The position numbers and the translations under genes are program-made. DNA of 16,581 nt from a bacterium (GTDB lineage: Bacteria; JAHJDO01), in assembly GCA_030611945.1 (NCBI GenBank), contig JAUWOV010000039.1:1-16581 (forward strand). Reading direction: 5' to 3'. Below the pieces are notes generated by a model. The model had not been told where the DNA came from. It worked only from the letters and a program-made list of their open reading frames with translations, and did not search any database. How positions within the stretch are numbered: position 1 is the stretch's first letter; every line of letters begins with the position of its first letter. Below are positions 1,131-16,135 of this stretch, piece by piece.

Positions 1131-2444
1131 TTAGTTTTTCTTTTTTAGCCATCTATTATGATACAATTTATTAAGCGCTATAGCATAGAGCCCGTTATCC
1201 GTAACATTAGCTCCTGTTCTGAATGAATCGGGCAAGCCAATCTGTAGCGCTAGATACAAAGCCATAAATAATGGGATAATTGGCTCAGGAGGATTAAGTA
1301 TCTTCATCATAGGTATAGCAAAAAAGACTAATTCTCCGGGAATACCCGGAACGCCAAATCCGATCAAAGCTACTATGGGTATACTTAAAAGCAGCTGAAA
1401 AAGCGAAAATTCATGACCAACCAGACAGGAGACTATACCAGCCAGAAGAATAACATGCATAGTAGTGCCATTGATGTTGAGATAAGCGCCCAGACCTACT
1501 ACCAATTTTCTTACAGAAGAAGAGATATGCGGATATTTCTTTTTTATCAAGCTCATATTCAGAGGCATACTTAGCGCTTCAGAGGAGGTAGACCATGCCA
1601 AAGGATAAACCTTGACCCAGTAGTTCTTAAAAAAGCCTCTTATAAAAAATGGATTTCTCACATAAGTTTTTAAGAGAAGTATTTGCATTCCCTGCCAGAT
1701 AAAGCAACCTATACCAATCAAAACTGACCCGGCAAGATATATCCAGACAAGTCCAAACTCTCCATTCATGCTCAAATGAAAGCCTAAAATATTCAAATTC
1801 CCCAATCCTGAGTTGTTTAAGGAAGAGACAACTTCTTTGGATAAAGAACCATTAAGTGTCTTGGGAAGAGAATAGATATAGGCGCCCAAAAGACACATTA
1901 GAAGAGGAATTACTGGTTCTATCCACTCCCCTAATTTCTCTATACCAGAGGTTACCTTCTCTAAACCAGAAAAGAGTCCCTTTTTGTAATAGGCAATAAT
2001 TCCTACAATGATAGAAGCCCAGATTGCCCAGAAGAAAGGGCTTTTCAACAAAAGGTCCCTCAAAACAATGAGGTTCTCATGAAATAACTTGCCAAAAGTA
2101 AAAGCACTGTCTTTTGGAAAGATAGGAAGCCCCAAGATAAAAGTAGTAAATATTGCAGCCCAGATTCCTGCCATAATTCGCGAGAAACTAAACCAGCCGA
2201 TAACAAGTCCGGCGAAGCTTGATTCCTCTCTTGAGCGCATCATCTTGGCAACATTAGGGGCGAGGATAATAAAGATAGCCACAGGCGCCAGAAGGCAGAT
2301 CCCTTCAATAGAAAAAGAAACTATCTTGTCTGCCGCATTCATAACCGTAGGAATATATTTTGCCAGCATTATTCCCACAGGGAGAGCTAAAATTATACTA
2401 AGAGCTAAATATCGCTCATAAAAACTAATCAGTCTTGCTTTCAT
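1131..2444 (-). CDS. Divergent DAACS-family (dicarboxylate/amino acid:cation) symporter
   Basis: This 437-residue polytopic protein belongs to the glutamate/dicarboxylate symporter family (SDF/DAACS, GltPh/DctA fold). The re-entrant HP1 serine-rich region is at about 284-292 (WSTSSEAL), the TM7 motif is NINGT at 323-327 where the family has NMDGT, the HP2 tip is GVPGIPG at 364-370, and the TM8 substrate motif DSFRTGANV spans 406-414. The aspartate, arginine, threonine and asparagine that bind substrate in GltPh (D394, R397, T398, N401) are kept. Two sodium-site aspartates appear changed to asparagine: the D of NMDGT (N325) and the one four residues after the conserved Asn (N417). This suggests altered cation coupling. 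The substrate is unknown; an organic acid or amino acid is most likely. The gene sits 15 bp after the 100-aa gene in the operon, so it may serve the metal compartment, perhaps by moving a counter-ion or chelator. Confidence 0.85.
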   Translation of the reverse strand: MKARLISFYERYLALSIILALPVGIMLAKYIPTVMNAADKIVSFSIEGICLLAPVAIFIILAPNVAKMMRSREESSFAGLVIGWFSFSRIMAGIWAAIFTTFILGLPIFPKDSAFTFGKLFHENLIVLRDLLLKSPFFWAIWASIIVGIIAYYKKGLFSGLEKVTSGIEKLGEWIEPVIPLLMCLLGAYIYSLPKTLNGSLSKEVVSSLNNSGLGNLNILGFHLSMNGEFGLVWIYLAGSVLIGIGCFIWQGMQILLLKTYVRNPFFIRGFFKNYWVKVYPLAWSTSSEALSMPLNMSLIKKKYPHISSSVRKLVVGLGAYLNINGTTMHVILLAGIVSCLVGHEFSLFQLLLSIPIVALIGFGVPGIPGELVFFAIPMMKILNPPEPIIPLFMALYLALQIGLPDSFRTGANVTDNGLYAIALNKLYHNRWLKKKN

Positions 2445-2459: not shown

Positions 2460-2762
2460 CTATTTCATTAATCGGGTTATATCTTTCTTTAGCATCTTAA
2501 CCATCTCTTTCTTGTGTGAATCCAACATAAATTTAAGATAAAAAGGATATTCTGCGTAAATTTCCAATTTGTTCTTTAAGAAGATCACATCCCACGAAAG
2601 CTGATCTGTCTTAACGGAAAGCTTATCCTTCTTCTTATTCCAGCGATAATGAATATCATATTCGCTATCTCTTTTTAAGTCCTTTAGCCACTTGCCTATA
2701 TTTTTGCGTATGGGTTCAGTAAGCGGGTTATTTAATCTCTTTTCTAAGACCTTTTCTCTCAT
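2460..2762 (-). CDS. 100-aa soluble protein, faintly like polyhydroxyalkanoate-system family
   Basis: A short, charged, soluble protein whose ATG overlaps the stop of the P-type ATPase gene as ATGA, which ties its synthesis to the ATPase. After an N-terminal helix (about residues 15-33) comes a pattern of short beta strands (YDIHYRW, KLSVKT, LSWDVIFL, KLEIYAEYP) and a C-terminal helix ending KKDITRLMK. This order, especially the central strands followed by a hydrophobic step and a helix of the form (K)(K)(E)MVKMLKKDI, resembles the PHA_gran_rgn 'polyhydroxyalkanoic acid system' family as I remember it. That is a weak, by-eye resemblance. If right, it would suggest a granule- or surface-associated protein. 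No transmembrane segment or metal-binding motif is seen. Confidence 0.65.
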   Translation of the reverse strand: MREKVLEKRLNNPLTEPIRKNIGKWLKDLKRDSEYDIHYRWNKKKDKLSVKTDQLSWDVIFLKNKLEIYAEYPFYLKFMLDSHKKEMVKMLKKDITRLMK

Positions 2763-5182
2763 TTCTCATCTGATGGCTGGTCAGCCACATCCTCTAGTTT
2801 AGCCATAGGAAGCGTTCCGTTCAAAGTGGCAAGAAAATTAGTTCCGTTATTGCAGACTATAGAATGAGCAAGACCAAAGACCCCTGTCATTGCTCCTAAG
2901 ATGCAGATAGTATTAGGCACGGCAATAAGGAGAAAACTGCGTCTGACATTTTTCTGTAAATCTCTTGAGATATCCAGAAGCATAGGGATTTTTTTCAAAG
3001 CGCCATCCATAAACACAATGCTGGCTGTATCTGTGGCAATAGACGAAGCCCCTCTTAATGAGATAGAAACATTCGCGCGTCCTAAAGCGATTGAATCGTT
3101 GATCCCATCTCCAACCATAGCTACCTTATGTCCTTTTCTCTGGATTCTTTTAATGTGATTTGCCTTATCATGAGGAAGCACCTCGGAATAATACTCGTCA
3201 ATTCCTATTTTTTTTGCCAGATTTCGTGTTGGACCTTCATGATCTCCTGAGATCAGGACAATGTTTTTTACATCCCTTTGCCTCAGATCCTGAACAACGT
3301 CATAAGCCTCCAGTCTTGTGGAAGCCTCAAGATCAATAAGCCCGACCAATTTATTATTGACTGCCAGCATGATATTAGAGCCGCCGCGATTTTGGATCTC
3401 TTCCGTCCTTGTTCTGAGAGAAGAAGAAATCTTAATGTTTTCCCTTTGCATGAATCGTGTGCTTCCAAGCTTAACCGTATCTCCGTCAATACCCAGTTCA
3501 ATGCCAAAACCTACGTGGTATTTTGATTTATCCATTTCAGGAAGTTTAAGGTCTAATTCCTTAGCTTTATCTAAAATTGCGCTTGCAATAGGATGGGAGA
3601 ATTTTTGCTCTGCGCAGGCGGCATAGGCGAGAATTTTCTCTTCGTTGAAGCTTCCGTTACCGGCAATAATCTCCTTTACTTCAGGCGCCTCCTGAGTTAA
3701 TGTCCCTGTCTTATCAAAAACAAAAGTATCAACTTCCTGGAGTGTTTCCAGAGCAACACCCTCTTTAACCAGAATCCCCTCTCTTGCCGCATAGGTAAGA
3801 TAAGAAAGCAAGCCCATAGGCGCAGCAATACGGATACCTGTTCCATAGTCGCAGTTGATAATTGCTAAGGCTGCGCTCTGTCCTCCTGTCAGGTAACCAA
3901 GACCAGCTACTCCTACAGTAGGTAAAACCGCTTTATCAGCGATTCGTTCGCCGGTAGACTGAATCTTTACTTTATAATTTGCTGAGCGAATGATCATTTT
4001 TTTGATCTTTGCAGCAGCAGTTTCTTCTCCTGATTTCTTGACCTTGACATATATCTTACCTGCAAGGACCATAGTAGAAGCAAAAACCTTGTCTCCTTCT
4101 CCCTTTTCTACAGGAGCCGATTCTCCTGTTAAGATGTGCTGGTCTACTGCAGCTTCTCCTTTTGAGACTTCGCCGTCAATTGGAATTGCCTCGCCTGTTG
4201 AAACAACAATTACATCGTCCTTTTTAAGGCTTCCGACAGAAACCTCTATTTCCTGACCATCCTTAAATAACCAGGCAAAACGCGCCTCTTTACCAAGTAC
4301 CCGCGTTAAAAGTTCTTTTGACTGCTTATGAGTCTTGTCCAGGATATTCTTCCCAAAACTAAGACACCAGACCATAAGAGCGGCTGCAAATATCTGCCCT
4401 GTTGCCAGGCAGGCAAGAGTGATTACTGTGTCTAATGCGTCAACATTCAGCTTTCTCTCCTTAACGACTCCATCAATGGCATCACTATAGGATGGATGGG
4501 CATTATAAAAAATCAATGCGGCATTAAATGGTATCAATGCGGGGAAATAAGGACCTAATGTAGCCAATCCCAAGCATCCCGTAGAAATAGAAAGGTTTAA
4601 GCTGGGTTTACTCCCTCTTTGAGGTTTATGAAAGGATTCCCTTAAAGCATCATCAACAATTCGTATCAACTTTTCCTTATCCAATTTTGTCTCATTGTAA
4701 AAAACAAGAACACTGCAAGTAGTAGGATTAAGATTGAATAGACCTACGCCGGGAGTATTAAATAAGGTCTTTTCTATATGCTGGCAGGACGATGGCTTTC
4801 TATAGAGTTCCGGGTGTTTTAGCCGCAATCTTCCCCGCAGGTTAGAAACGACTTGCCATTCACTTATCAGTCTGCCAATCCGCCTGAATTCAATCTTTCG
4901 CTCATTCGGAGAAGAAGGGAAAAGGGAATGTCCTTTTTTGCCTCTTCTCTTTTCCCTTGCCTTCTCCAGAATTCTATCAGGAAAGTGATTTTCTCCTGCT
5001 GCGTCCGGATTGTAGTGTATAAGACACGTTCTGGTAAGAGGGTTTACTTTGACAGTTTCTATGCCTTCAATAGTAAAGACCTCTTCTATGAACTTTTGGC
5101 AGGATACGCTTTGGGGATTTCCGAACAGGTGATCATGAGCTATTCTTAAACGACCTTCAATATTATGTAGAATTCTAGGCAT
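2759..5182 (-). CDS. P1B-6-like metal-transporting P-type ATPase (ferrosome FezB-like)
   Basis: This 807-residue membrane ATPase pumps a transition metal, probably iron, across a membrane using ATP. Two N-terminal HMA_2-like domains (about 1-60 and 108-180) carry GRLR (10-13, 117-120) instead of the CxxC of copper-type HMA domains. Then follow membrane helices (about 200-280), the actuator domain with TGES (352-355), the metal-site helix, the phosphorylation site DKTGT (490-494), the P1B HP dipeptide (530-531) and the hinge GDGIND (691-696). Two C-terminal helices end with a NNGTN segment (778-782). In the metal-site helix the usual CPC is absent: INCDYGTGIRIAAP (442-455) aligns with DYSCxLKLATP of HMA_2-containing P1B ATPases, with Gly-Thr where Ser-Cys is usual. 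The start is 3 bp after the preceding stop. The ferrosome link comes from family, HMA_2 domains and neighbours; metal identity is inferred. Confidence 0.88.
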   Translation of the reverse strand: MPRILHNIEGRLRIAHDHLFGNPQSVSCQKFIEEVFTIEGIETVKVNPLTRTCLIHYNPDAAGENHFPDRILEKAREKRRGKKGHSLFPSSPNERKIEFRRIGRLISEWQVVSNLRGRLRLKHPELYRKPSSCQHIEKTLFNTPGVGLFNLNPTTCSVLVFYNETKLDKEKLIRIVDDALRESFHKPQRGSKPSLNLSISTGCLGLATLGPYFPALIPFNAALIFYNAHPSYSDAIDGVVKERKLNVDALDTVITLACLATGQIFAAALMVWCLSFGKNILDKTHKQSKELLTRVLGKEARFAWLFKDGQEIEVSVGSLKKDDVIVVSTGEAIPIDGEVSKGEAAVDQHILTGESAPVEKGEGDKVFASTMVLAGKIYVKVKKSGEETAAAKIKKMIIRSANYKVKIQSTGERIADKAVLPTVGVAGLGYLTGGQSAALAIINCDYGTGIRIAAPMGLLSYLTYAAREGILVKEGVALETLQEVDTFVFDKTGTLTQEAPEVKEIIAGNGSFNEEKILAYAACAEQKFSHPIASAILDKAKELDLKLPEMDKSKYHVGFGIELGIDGDTVKLGSTRFMQRENIKISSSLRTRTEEIQNRGGSNIMLAVNNKLVGLIDLEASTRLEAYDVVQDLRQRDVKNIVLISGDHEGPTRNLAKKIGIDEYYSEVLPHDKANHIKRIQRKGHKVAMVGDGINDSIALGRANVSISLRGASSIATDTASIVFMDGALKKIPMLLDISRDLQKNVRRSFLLIAVPNTICILGAMTGVFGLAHSIVCNNGTNFLATLNGTLPMAKLEDVADQPSDEK

Positions 5183-5185
5183 GCT

Positions 5186-5458
5186 CTAAACTTTAGCTGT
5201 CTTGGCTTCTACAGGACTGTCTATCTTCTCAGCTTTTTTTGTTCTTGGCTTGGCGATCATATCCTCAATTTGCTCCTTACGTTTTGCCACGAACTTAGCT
5301 GTCTCTTTATATGCCTGCTGAGATTTTTTCATTACTATCTTCATTGCCTTCTTTGCAATAGGCTTTGCCTTCTTCTGTATTTTTATCCAGTTTCTGCCTA
5401 TTATTATTCCTGCGATCAGTAATGCTGGTCCTGTCATATGTCTTAAACTTATTCTCAT
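5186..5458 (-). CDS. 90-aa GxNW-signature membrane protein with basic helical tail
   Basis: A small membrane protein with an N-terminal hydrophobic helix (about residues 10-20, GPALLIAGIII), directly followed by GRNWIKIQKK and a long lysine-rich, probably helical tail. It is a paralogue of the 85-aa protein at 6314-6571. Both share the GxNW anchor, and both have a matching stretch later in the tail: AKFVAKRKEQIEDMIAK here against SKFIAEQKENFEDRMVASK there. A GGAG ribosome-binding site precedes the ATG. It lies immediately upstream of the P-type ATPase gene (3-bp gap), so the two are almost certainly co-translated. It is a candidate structural membrane protein of a ferrosome-like compartment; no enzymatic motif is seen. 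Confidence 0.75.
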   Translation of the reverse strand: MRISLRHMTGPALLIAGIIIGRNWIKIQKKAKPIAKKAMKIVMKKSQQAYKETAKFVAKRKEQIEDMIAKPRTKKAEKIDSPVEAKTAKV

Positions 5459-5502: not shown

Positions 5503-5634
5503 CTATTTCTTTTTTCCTATCCTGTCTATGAGTTTATCGCCCAAACGAAATCCGACAGACAGAAGAATGCCGGTTGCAACTAGCTGGGCGCAGACTATAG
5601 AAAAAACACCTAGAACCTGTCCTATCTTGCTCAT
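5503..5634 (-). CDS. 43-aa single-span membrane peptide
   Basis: This small gene has a strong AAAGGAGGTGG ribosome-binding site, and its ATG (5634) overlaps the stop of the HMA_2 gene as ATGA. The product has one hydrophobic segment (about residues 8-29, with CAQLVATGILLSVGF), then RLGDKLIDRIGKKK, an amphipathic basic end. It lacks the GxNW signature but shares the size and polarity of the operon's other small proteins. Translational coupling and the clear ribosome-binding site make it convincing despite its length. Function is unknown; it may be a subunit or regulator of the adjacent metal ATPase or a membrane-shaping peptide. Confidence 0.65.
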   Translation of the reverse strand: MSKIGQVLGVFSIVCAQLVATGILLSVGFRLGDKLIDRIGKKK

Positions 5635-6305
5635 GTTTTACCACCTCCTTTCGATTTTTGTTTTTCGCCATCTCTTTTGGATTGCCAGTAGAACATGTTT
5701 ATTCCATACCAGATAAGATCATCCCAACTGGGTAGCTCAGGCCTGCGGAAAAGGTCTACAATCCCGGTTAGCACTAAAGCGGAAGCAATAAGGGAAGGAA
5801 TATCCGCTTTATCCTTTGTGCCTTTGCGAAAAAGCGTATCAACGTCCTTTGATACTTTATAGACCTCCTGAAATAAGCGGCTTCCTTTATCACTAACCGG
5901 AGCCCGGGAATCTACTTTCTTTAATTTTTCACGAGCTACGTCTACACCCTTGCGGAAAAAGACATCAATATTCTTTGTTGCTTCATATATATCCTGCAGC
6001 AAACGACTATCTTTGCTGCTGTCTGAAAACAAAGAATCCGCCTCCTTTGATTTTCCGCGGGCTTGAACTATATTTACGCTTGGAATTTTCTTCAATACCG
6101 CTGTCTTTAGCTTCGTCAGAGACAGAATCTTCTCATTGTAAAGGATGACAAGAGACTGAGTAGTCTTATTATATACTACCTCTTCTATTCCAGATATCTC
6201 TAACAACTTACCTACGTCCGGAATTTTTATACCCTTAGCTTTATAGCGAAACCTTACTCTTCCAGGTATTGAATGCAGGATTAGTAGCTGGTTTTTCTCT
6301 GCCAT
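5631..6305 (-). CDS. HMA_2-domain membrane protein with internal repeat (FezC-like)
   Basis: This 224-residue protein has an N-terminal HMA_2-like domain (about 6-75) whose opening HSIPGRVRFR matches the two domains of the P-type ATPase (HNIEGRLRI, SNLRGRLRL). It lacks a CxxC copper site. A linker contains two copies of a 26-residue unit: 98-123 (KDSRLLQDIYEATKNIDVFF) and 138-163 (DKGSRLFQEVYKVSKDVDTLF). The C-terminal part has a hydrophobic stretch (about 170-185) and a tryptophan-rich one (194-208), ending in a lysine/glycine-rich tail. HMA-domain accessory proteins next to a P1B-6 ATPase are a mark of fez clusters, so it may bind the ATPase's own HMA_2 domains or help target it to the compartment. 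Start is supported by GAGG 8 bp upstream. Biochemical role is unproven. Confidence 0.75.
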   Translation of the reverse strand: MAEKNQLLILHSIPGRVRFRYKAKGIKIPDVGKLLEISGIEEVVYNKTTQSLVILYNEKILSLTKLKTAVLKKIPSVNIVQARGKSKEADSLFSDSSKDSRLLQDIYEATKNIDVFFRKGVDVAREKLKKVDSRAPVSDKGSRLFQEVYKVSKDVDTLFRKGTKDKADIPSLIASALVLTGIVDLFRRPELPSWDDLIWYGINMFYWQSKRDGEKQKSKGGGKT

Positions 6306-6313
6306 TTAAATCC

Positions 6314-6571
6314 TCACTTTGTTTTTACCGCTTTTTTTACGGGTTTTGCTTTCTTAGCCATCTTGCTTGCAACCATGCGGTCTTCAAAATTCTCTTTTTG
6401 TTCAGCTATGAATTTACTTACAGAATTAGAAACCTCAGCCGTCTTAGTCCCCAGAGAATCCAGAAGAGGTTTTATGCGTTTCCTTATCTTCGGCCAGTTT
6501 GCCCCTACTGCTACCCCGCCAACAAAGAGTATCAGCAAAGGAAGTATACTGTTTTTTTGACCTTCAGCCAT
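6314..6571 (-). CDS. 85-aa GxNWPKIRK-signature membrane protein
   Basis: A small membrane protein with an N-terminal hydrophobic helix (about residues 9-23), followed by GANWPKIRKRIKPLL and a helical, lysine-rich tail ending KPVKKAVKTK. It has a perfect GGAGG ribosome-binding site. It is paralogous to the 90-aa protein at 5186-5458 over both anchor and tail, and its anchor is identical over GANWPKIRK to the winged-helix protein at 7449-7859. It sits between ParA and the HMA_2 gene, with 62 bp to ParA and 8 bp to the next start. The tail may form an amphipathic or coiled-coil helix on the cytoplasmic face. Likely a structural or recruiting protein of the proposed compartment; function inferred from context only. 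Confidence 0.75.
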   Translation of the reverse strand: MAEGQKNSILPLLILFVGGVAVGANWPKIRKRIKPLLDSLGTKTAEVSNSVSKFIAEQKENFEDRMVASKMAKKAKPVKKAVKTK

Positions 6572-6633: not shown

Positions 6634-7419
6634 TTATGCTGCCACTCTATATCTTTGAATCACCTCCCTCGTCAAACTCATATATGCTGTTGCTCCATGA
6701 CAATCTTTATCGTAATAGATAATTGGAGCGCCCTCCTTACCGCTTTCTACGAGTTTTATATTCATTCTGATAATGCTCTTGAAAAGTTTGCCAGACACCT
6801 GTTTATCCTTCTTTAATATATCCAAAGCATCCTTAGAGACATTAGCCCTTGAATCAAACATGGTTACAACTACACCCAAAAGAGATATCCCTTCGTTCAT
6901 CTCCTCCTTAACAATGTCAAACATGTCCATTAGTTTTGTCAATCCTCCCAAAGCGAAATGATGAGCCTGCACTGGAATAATCAACTCACTGGCGGAAGTT
7001 AAGGCGTTTACCGTAAGAAGAGATAGAGACGGAGGACAATCTATCAGGATAAAATCGTAATCATCCTTTATATTCTCTAACGCTTTTTTAAGTACAAACT
7101 CCCGCCCATACAAAGGGACCATTTCAATCTCAGCGCCCGCAAGATTTATATGGCTTGGCGCAACATCTATGCCTTTAAATCTTGTAGAATGAATGATTCT
7201 CTTTATTCCTTTTTTTGGCTCTATCAGGACATTGTAAATAGATTCATTCAATTCCTCAGAATTAATACCAAGTCCGCTTGTCAAATTAGCCTGAGGATCC
7301 ATATCTATTGCTAAGACCCTTTTCCCCAATTTCCCTAAACAAGCGCTTACATTGATCGCAGTTGTAGTTTTGCCGCAGCCGCCTTTCTGATTTGCTATGG
7401 CAATCACTTTACAAAACAT
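6634..7419 (-). CDS. parA: ParA/MinD-superfamily partition ATPase, without a ParB in the window
   Basis: This 261-residue ParA ATPase dimerises with ATP, binds DNA non-specifically and positions cargo on the nucleoid. The deviant Walker A is KGGCGKTT (12-19), with Cys where Val is usual and the signature lysine K12 present. The Walker A' motif DMDPQAN is at 39-45 and Walker B ILIDCPPS at 124-131. Length and lack of an N-terminal DNA-binding domain match small (type Ib/Soj-like) ParA proteins. No ParB or parS is visible. The gene sits inside the metal-compartment operon, 29 bp after a membrane-anchored winged-helix protein. That suggests organelle partitioning, as McdA does for carboxysomes, with the upstream protein as adaptor. 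The alternative is a chromosome-partition Soj, since the origin lies about 7 kb away. The ATPase family is certain; the cargo is inference. Confidence 0.93.
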   Translation of the reverse strand: MFCKVIAIANQKGGCGKTTTAINVSACLGKLGKRVLAIDMDPQANLTSGLGINSEELNESIYNVLIEPKKGIKRIIHSTRFKGIDVAPSHINLAGAEIEMVPLYGREFVLKKALENIKDDYDFILIDCPPSLSLLTVNALTSASELIIPVQAHHFALGGLTKLMDMFDIVKEEMNEGISLLGVVVTMFDSRANVSKDALDILKKDKQVSGKLFKSIIRMNIKLVESGKEGAPIIYYDKDCHGATAYMSLTREVIQRYRVAA

Positions 7420-7448
7420 GTTTTAACCTATCTCAATTTTTGAACTAA

Positions 7449-7859
7449 CTATGCTGGTAAATAAAGTTTCTCTTCCTTACGCACTTTGTTTTCACTAAGA
7501 AGTTTCTTCATCGGCGCGCCCAGTTTTACAAAATGAACTCCCATGATACCAGCGATTTCCACCAGGCTTTTTCCCTTTGGAGCGTCCTGGACAACAGAAA
7601 GTATCTGTCCTTCAACCGTAACTGGTTTCGCCTTAATTGGTTCAGGTTTAACCTTAACAGCCTTAACCAGCTTTGGCTTTACTTCTTTTTTCACTGTCTT
7701 CTGTTTGCCTATGGACGCAATCGCTTTACTATAAACAGCGGATGCCTTTTTGCTCACAACGGTCCAGCAAGTAACGCTTGATTTTCTTATCTTAGGCCAG
7801 TTTGCGCCAATCAAAGTTCCGGCTACAAGCCACAATAACGCTTGTGCTCTATTATTCAC
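7449..7859 (-). CDS. Membrane-anchored GANWPKIRK protein with C-terminal winged-helix-like domain
   Basis: First gene of the operon, 136 residues from a GTG start at 7859 behind AAGGGGGTGAT. Three parts are visible. A hydrophobic anchor (about 6-19) runs into GANWPKIRKSS, shared with the other GxNW proteins. A basic, proline-containing linker (about 52-82) is rich in KVKPEP-type repeats. A C-terminal region of about 54 residues (83-136) reads like a winged helix: ILSVVQDAPKGKSLVEIAGIMG, then a recognition-like helix and a wing ending KVRKEEKLYLPA. Such a domain could bind DNA or protein. Lying just upstream of ParA, this protein is a candidate cargo adaptor linking the compartment membrane to ParA. 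It could instead be a membrane-tethered regulator of the operon. I see no precedent that fixes the choice. Confidence 0.7.
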   Translation of the reverse strand: MNNRAQALLWLVAGTLIGANWPKIRKSSVTCWTVVSKKASAVYSKAIASIGKQKTVKKEVKPKLVKAVKVKPEPIKAKPVTVEGQILSVVQDAPKGKSLVEIAGIMGVHFVKLGAPMKKLLSENKVRKEEKLYLPA

Positions 7860-7882: not shown

Positions 7883-8005
7883 ATTAACAATAAAAAAACT
7901 CCAGCCTCACTGCTCAAATACCAGCAAAACCAGAGTCTCCAAATCATTGCTAATTTTAACACTGGCTATTATTTGCGCTTGTTGTGTGAGGCTTTCACAC
8001 AGAAA
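7883..8005 (-). promoter_or_regulatory. Operon leader with mutually exclusive inverted repeats and a U-tract
   Basis: The 184-bp gap ahead of the operon has two overlapping pairings. A tight 7-bp palindrome, TGTGTGA (7983-7989) and TCACACA (7995-8001), has a 5-bp spacer. One arm region also forms GTGAGGCT (7986-7993), which pairs with AGCCTCAC (7903-7910). On the minus strand the distal element is followed by GGAG and seven U, as in a terminator. The two pairings cannot form together. This could be an operator for a dimeric regulator (it resembles TGTGA-N-TCACA sites but with N5), an attenuator, or the terminator of the upstream DUF3870-like gene. No convincing -35/-10 was found here. Confidence 0.4.
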
Positions 8006-14776: not shown

Positions 14777-16135
14777 TTAACAATTTATAATATCTTTAAT
14801 TTTAACTATTATTTCTCTAAAGTTATTACTGTTATTTATCTTCTCTTTTATTTTAGCGCATGCATGCATTACAGTAGTATGGTCTTTCCCGCCAAATGAT
14901 GCACCGATTTCTGGGAGAGATAAGTCTGTCAACTCCCTTGATATATACATAGCAATCTGTCTTGGCAGAACAATATTTCTACTTCGTCTATTAGAAGTAA
15001 GGTCAGAAAGCCTTATTTTAAAATAATCCACTATTTTTTCTTTAATTAAATCAACATTTATCTGCTTGTTCTCATTAAGATTAATTATATCTTTTAAAGC
15101 GTTATTAGCAAGGTTAATATCAATTTTTTCCCCGGTTAGAGAGGCAAATGCGATAAGTCTAACCAGCGCGCCTTCTAATTCTCTTATATTTGCTTTTATA
15201 TTATCTGCAATAAGGTATGCAACGTCATTGGGCATAGACATTCCCTCACGTTCAGCTTTTTTCTGCAATATAGCTATGCGGGTCTCAAGGTCTGGAGGCT
15301 GAATATCTGTAATCAATCCCCACTCAAATCTTGAGATAAGACGATGTTCCAGAACTGGAATGTTTTTTGGATGTTTATCGCTTGATATAACTATCTGTTT
15401 ATGAGCATCATAAAGGTCATTAAAGGTGTGGAAAAATTCCTCCTGCGTACTTTCCTTACCAGCTATAAAATGAATATCATCTATTAGAAGTATATCCGTG
15501 TTTCTATATTTTCTTCTAAATTGATTTATTTTTCCATTTCTAACAGCGTCTATAAACTGGTTTGTAAACTTCTCACTGGATATATACACGATTTTTTTCT
15601 TTGGATTTTTACTAATAACAAAGTCGCCGATCGCCTGCATTAAATGTGTCTTTCCCAATCCTACGTCGCCATAGATAAATAGAGGGTTATAAGCTTTTGC
15701 CGGAGATTGCGCTACAGCGAGGCATGCGGCATGCGCAAAACGATTGCTGGAGCCCACCACAAAACTATTAAAGGTGTATTTAGGATTAAGTACGCTGCCC
15801 ATGCTGAAAGCATGTAATTTGTCTTCAGAGATAATTTTTTTAATACTATGAGTTCGTTTCTGTTTTGGAGCATATTTAACATCTGGCGCAGTAAATTTAA
15901 TAGAAGAAGATTCACCCGTAACGCTTGTAATGGATTCTATGAGTAAATCCATATATTTCTCTCTTAACCAGCTTTCAATAAAATCACTAGGCACCTCTAA
16001 AACAAGTTCGTTTTTAACAAAGGATACAGGCTTTATTGTTTTTACCCATATTTCAAAACTTTGCCCTGTGGATTTTTCCTGAATATACTTAACCATTTCC
16101 TGCCAAAGAAGTTCTGGGTTCATGAAGTTATCCAC
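14777..16135 (-). CDS. dnaA: Chromosomal replication initiator protein DnaA
   Basis: DnaA is the AAA+ initiator that binds DnaA boxes and melts the origin. Its 452 residues include domain I (about 1-75, with WLREKYMDLL), a short linker, and the AAA+ core with Walker A GDVGLGKT (156-163), Walker B ILLIDD (215-220) and box VII RLISRF (265-270). The C-terminal DNA-binding domain carries the signature GGKDHTTVMHA (415-425). The annotated start is GTG at 16135, which lies within a perfect DnaA box (TTATCCACA, 16128-16136); an ATG at 16123 (residue 5) is the alternative, and neither has a strong ribosome-binding site. The box over the start suggests autoregulation by DnaA. Confidence 0.97.
   Translation of the reverse strand: MDNFMNPELLWQEMVKYIQEKSTGQSFEIWVKTIKPVSFVKNELVLEVPSDFIESWLREKYMDLLIESITSVTGESSSIKFTAPDVKYAPKQKRTHSIKKIISEDKLHAFSMGSVLNPKYTFNSFVVGSSNRFAHAACLAVAQSPAKAYNPLFIYGDVGLGKTHLMQAIGDFVISKNPKKKIVYISSEKFTNQFIDAVRNGKINQFRRKYRNTDILLIDDIHFIAGKESTQEEFFHTFNDLYDAHKQIVISSDKHPKNIPVLEHRLISRFEWGLITDIQPPDLETRIAILQKKAEREGMSMPNDVAYLIADNIKANIRELEGALVRLIAFASLTGEKIDINLANNALKDIINLNENKQINVDLIKEKIVDYFKIRLSDLTSNRRSRNIVLPRQIAMYISRELTDLSLPEIGASFGGKDHTTVMHACAKIKEKINNSNNFREIIVKIKDIINC

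Follow-up and report, generated by a model that had tools for sequence, protein, structure and literature searches.

A ParA ATPase and a membrane-anchored winged-helix protein at the head of a FezB-like metal ATPase operon: a possible compartment-positioning pair

Gene organization of the operon

The window analysed here (16,581 nucleotides) is the entire contig C66 of the genome of an uncultured bacterium (G000; 1.66 Mb in 119 contigs, 91% complete). Eight genes run along the minus strand below dnaA–dnaN–gyrB–argH; in order, they encode an adaptor candidate, ParA, an 85-aa protein, a 224-aa HMA_2 protein, a 90-aa protein, an ATPase, a 100-aa protein, and an SDF transporter, with intergenic gaps of 29, 62, 8, 172, 3, −4, and 15 bp. 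The features are as follows.

7449..7859, minus strand: candidate adaptor of 136 aa with a GTG start, made up of a membrane anchor, a Lys/Pro linker, and a winged helix
7782..7859, minus strand: anchor part of the adaptor, residues 1–26 (...LIGANWPKIRK), common to the 85-aa, 90-aa, and Kiritimatiellaeota 81-aa proteins
7620..7706, minus strand: Lys/Pro-rich disordered linker of the adaptor, residues 52–80 (pLDDT <50)
7452..7619, minus strand: winged-helix tail of the adaptor, residues 81–136, homologous to the tails of GvpC-like gas-vesicle proteins
6634..7419, minus strand: ParA ATPase, 261 aa, type Ib, KGGCGKTT
6314..6571, minus strand: 85-aa anchor protein, GANWPKIRK; orthologue in locus L041 (Kiritimatiellaeota)
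5631..6305, minus strand: 224-aa HMA_2 (heavy-metal-associated) protein; orthologue in locus L041 (Kiritimatiellaeota)
5186..5458, minus strand: 90-aa anchor protein, GRNWIKIQK
2759..5182, minus strand: FezB-like heavy-metal P1B-type ATPase, 807 aa, with an N-terminal HMA_2 domain and no CPC site (NCDYGTGIR)
2460..2762, minus strand: PHA_gran_rgn-like protein, 100 aa (E 5e-5, below the cut-off; the L041 orthologue is above it)
1131..2444, minus strand: SDF-family (dicarboxylate symporter-like) transporter; orthologue in locus L041
7983..8001, no strand: perfect palindrome TGTGTGA-GGCTT-TCACACA, candidate operon operator

No reading frame of the operon is broken, the gaps are short, and the ribosome sites are good; the GTG start of the adaptor gene is preceded by a strong Shine-Dalgarno sequence, GGGGGTGATGAAAAGTG. 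The sequence-only reading had put at the head of the operon a protein combining a membrane anchor, a Lys/Pro linker, and a winged helix, with ParA following after 29 bp and the origin about 7 kb away; the open reading frames, coordinates, anchor identity, and AF2 model agree on the first point, the gene coordinates (7859–7449 and 7419–6634) on the second, and the position of dnaA (14777–16135, ~7 kb from the adaptor and ParA genes) on the third. The adaptor/ParA arrangement is real, tightly built, and unusual; its function is what we infer below. The ATPase matches TIGR01525 (3e-131), carries an HMA_2 domain, and is a candidate FezB-type enzyme. PADLOC gave no relevant match, and Rfam gave no match at all.

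An orthologous operon is found in a genome of another phylum, Kiritimatiellaeota (G005, C300:1146–6675; L041/L075), in which the genes for an 81-aa anchor protein (GMNWPKIRK), the HMA_2 protein, the ATPase (51% identical), the PHA_gran_rgn-like protein, and the SDF transporter follow in the same order. Because the last two are present there as well, sequence comparison suggests that they belong to the operon core.

The anchored adaptor and its winged-helix tail

The adaptor adjoins the ParA gene and carries the same anchor as the other small membrane proteins of the operon, the string GANWPKIRK being identical in the adaptor and the 85-aa protein. Alignment of its anchor with those of the 85-aa, 90-aa, and Kiritimatiellaeota 81-aa proteins gave shuffle Z values of 11.9, 8.8, and 11.2, respectively; neither the adaptor nor the anchors are represented in Pfam. 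In the AF2 model of the full-length protein, a helix at residues 3–19 and a second at 21–58 are followed by disorder at about 59–80 and a winged helix-turn-helix (wHTH) domain at 82–136. The N-terminus is thus a hydrophobic helix, and the basic disordered stretch is internal (about residues 52–80; 11 Lys and 4 Pro in residues 52–86). Since the hydrophobic stretch is short (~14 residues, ALLWLVAGTLIGA), the adaptor likely, though not certainly, spans the membrane fully. The make-up had been considered suited to a ParA cargo adaptor, and the anchor, basic linker, and wHTH domain are indeed all present, but the basic stretch is not N-terminal.

The wHTH domain, which was also modelled alone, has a pLDDT of ~80–88 and in a fold search superposes on winged helices of the MarR/IclR/Zalpha type (~1 Å over ~55 residues); such matches between a model and known structures indicate the fold, not the function. 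By sequence, the tail matches the C-termini of two coiled-coil proteins (306 and 343 aa) from two genomes of the same genus (G001 and G003), the wHTH alone being 46–49% identical (shuffle Z, 23–25). Chance likeness is ruled out by the shuffles for both anchor and tail, because the Z values lie far above those of shuffled sequence. As in the adaptor, the C-terminal winged helix of the two proteins follows a Lys/Pro-rich linker, and the protein that carries it is assigned to an organelle, whereas their body is a gas-vesicle coiled coil in place of a membrane anchor; the linkers themselves are alike in composition only (Z about 1, not significant). Both are encoded between gvpA and gvpN, in operons with GvpF/L, Hsp20-like genes, and an ArsA-type ATPase, and are called GvpC-like because of their repeats and of where they lie, Pfam having given no match to GvpC. 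Unlike the window operon, these operons have no ParA and only the ArsA-family ATPase, homologues of which are known from gvp clusters (PMC2963123). Two further small proteins that resemble winged helices (~100 and ~70 aa) are encoded in the gas-vesicle locus of G003 (L026:1182–1706). No gas-vesicle genes were found in G000; neither the adaptor nor its tail had a match in plasmids, nor the tail in viral contigs.

Since the tail is found on both the GvpC-like proteins and the anchored adaptor, one tail type is, as judged by sequence, shared in this lineage by proteins of two organelles that are not related to each other, a recurrence that fits an organelle-surface adaptor. That the tail works as a ParA partner does not follow, however, because G003 carries it while its sole ParA-like match is Mrp. 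An anchored winged-helix protein acting without ParA, either as a nucleoid tether or as a membrane-bound regulator of its own operon with ParA merely co-located, therefore has to be weighed. Besides the G003 tail, the similarity of the fold to DNA-binding MarR/IclR/Zalpha-type domains points in this direction, as does the perfect palindrome with 7-bp arms and CRP/FNR-like half-sites (positions 7983–8001), located ~124 bp upstream of the adaptor start codon. With up to three mismatches allowed, the palindrome has two matches in the window, one of them perfect (0.32 expected; 9 of 200 shuffles reach two), and it may have a regulatory role; its reading as a terminator was rejected because it has no T-run. 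However, a spacing of 29 bp to ParA points to a pair, the tails in the sister genomes are on structural gas-vesicle proteins and not on obvious regulators, a search of gas-vesicle loci did not turn up the palindrome, and wHTH domains serve protein binding as well as DNA binding. We consider a ParA-independent role credible, if on the unlikely side.

Distribution of the pair and nature of the ParA

Three ATPase loci could be compared for co-occurrence. Both ParA and the adaptor are missing from the orthologous G005 operon, from a distant ATPase locus (46% identity) in the phylum sampled around a Planctomycetia genome, and from an ATPase locus on a Methylobacterium plasmid (40%); the proposed co-occurrence of the pair with FezB-like genes elsewhere was therefore not borne out at these three loci, and the pair is an accessory of the window's lineage. 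The anchor DNA pattern GGNNNNAAYTGGCCNAARATHMRNAAR gave 28 matches in genome contigs, among which only L041 is a real anchor, and its two viral matches were dismissed as chance. A scan of genome contigs with the single ATPase protein gave no match, the patterns chosen being poorly conserved.

It is conceivable that the pair reflects a recent operon fusion without joint function, in which a rearrangement near the origin brought a mobile ParA, together with a chimeric gene for anchor and tail, to a site upstream of the ATPase operon. The ATPase operon is indeed sporadic (one of 5 genomes in its own phylum, and one of 387 and one of 392 in two other phyla), and the pair was found at no other locus in the sequences searched. 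The intact frames, short gaps, and good ribosome sites nevertheless speak against such an event, as does the operon's own anchor on the adaptor, which would not be expected in a chance neighbour, and we regard it as improbable.

The window ParA matches Pfam AAA_31 (2e-65), has an intact deviant Walker A motif (KGGCGKTT) near its N-terminus, and is of type Ib (KGGxGK[ST] with the signature lysine and no N-terminal HTH). It is ~40% identical to Soj of T. thermophilus and H. pylori, and Soj structures are among its best PDB matches. A second ParA in the genome (C30:861–1616; L002/L027), 48% identical to the first, is encoded in a pilus operon between prepilin-like and PilM-like genes. KGGCGKTT is common to these two and absent from the other 13 ParA sequences compared. 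No ParB was detected in the window or in the 91% complete genome by TIGR00180 or PF02195, the latter being positive in the sister genome G001, which upholds the claim that parB is absent; parS gave 0 matches with up to three mismatches in the 16.6-kb window. True ParA is lacking in three of the four sister genomes, the "ParA" matches in G002–G004 having been rejected as Mrp-type.

In likeness to chromosomal ParABS (Soj/Spo0J), the window ParA is Soj-like and near dnaA, but a membrane-anchored neighbour stands in place of ParB. With ParB missing by two profiles and parS missing from the window, Soj/ParABS was rejected as the plain answer and, the genome being incomplete, is best called unlikely. 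The Soj-type alternative that the sequence-only reading had kept beside its own proposal is thereby weakened, also because the other ParA of the genome belongs to a pilus operon and not to a chromosomal Soj system; a small tree of 15 ParA sequences neither puts the window ParA among Soj nor excludes it. A variant in which the nearby origin is the target of ParA and the wHTH protein takes over DNA binding from ParB, tying the origin region to the membrane or compartment, would find a precedent in archaeal AspA (5k5q, a weak structural match), a wHTH protein through which a ParA system binds DNA, and would suit the short distance to dnaA and the likeness to Soj, but is quite improbable in view of the missing ParB and parS, the sister genomes without true ParA, the lack of firm placement in the tree, and an anchor that is the compartment operon's own.

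A possible module for compartment positioning

The reading that we prefer, at a probability of about 0.4, is that a lineage-specific pair of ParA and cargo adaptor was added at the front of the FezB-like metal-compartment operon and positions the compartments. It is supported by the order and spacing of the operon, the anchor common to the operon's small proteins and to the Kiritimatiellaeota operon, the occurrence of the tail on two cargos, and the intact ParA, and further by the absence of ParB and of parS in the window together with the assignment of the second ParA to a pilus operon. It is weakened by the G005 operon and the two distant ATPase loci, which do without the pair, and by G003, which has the tail with only Mrp as a ParA-like match. 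The pair thus fits, without proving, a compartment-positioning module. In such a module, the adaptor would be fixed by its anchor in the membrane of the compartment, on the cytoplasmic side, and ParA-ATP would cover the nucleoid. Through its linker and winged-helix tail, the adaptor may then contact the ParA-nucleoid surface via ParA, DNA, or both, and this contact would stimulate ATP hydrolysis by ParA, so that a Brownian ratchet could distribute the compartments and secure their inheritance, by analogy with McdAB.

As in the carboxysome-positioning system McdAB, the gene of a ParA-family ATPase adjoins that of a small protein, here a candidate for binding to the cargo, that contains a disordered basic region, and ParB/parS are missing. 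The two systems differ in that the window ParA keeps the signature lysine (KGGCGKT), whereas the McdA motif is SGGQGKT (PMC9178275), in that the partner has a membrane anchor at one end, the N-terminal one, and a winged helix at the other, and in that the cargo here is a predicted membrane compartment. ParA partners are very diverse and often unidentified (PMC10241942), and in those that are known a disordered, basic N-terminal region makes the contact with ParA (PMC10241942, PMC12204374). This calls for a reservation on the positioning model, because the adaptor lacks an N-terminus of the McdAB type and has its anchor there. A broader proposal, that the portable winged-helix tail serves within this small phylum as a surface handle on both gas vesicles and the metal compartment and at least in the latter is the partner of a dedicated positioning or partitioning ParA, is doubtful.

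From the FezB-like ATPase alone, we infer by sequence that the compartment may be a ferrosome. The operon resembles ferrosome (fez) clusters in joining a heavy-metal P1B-type ATPase to small anchored membrane proteins, and differs from them in having the SDF transporter and the PHA_gran_rgn-like protein in its conserved core and in being without a DUF4405 (FezC-type) cytochrome, no match to which was found among its proteins; we know of no requirement for DUF4405 in all fez clusters. No ParA system for ferrosomes or gas vesicles is described in the literature searched, as the sequence-only reading had stated for ferrosomes. If the positioning reading is true, metal-storing membrane organelles would be actively segregated like carboxysomes, a single tail type would flag organelles of widely different kinds to the ParA machinery, and the tail would offer a direct sequence handle for finding cargo adaptors. 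Among the more distant FezB-like sequences, one locus (L074:3298–9546) encodes two FezB-like P-type ATPases of 867 and 847 aa in tandem, with a Ca/H-antiporter-like gene nearby.
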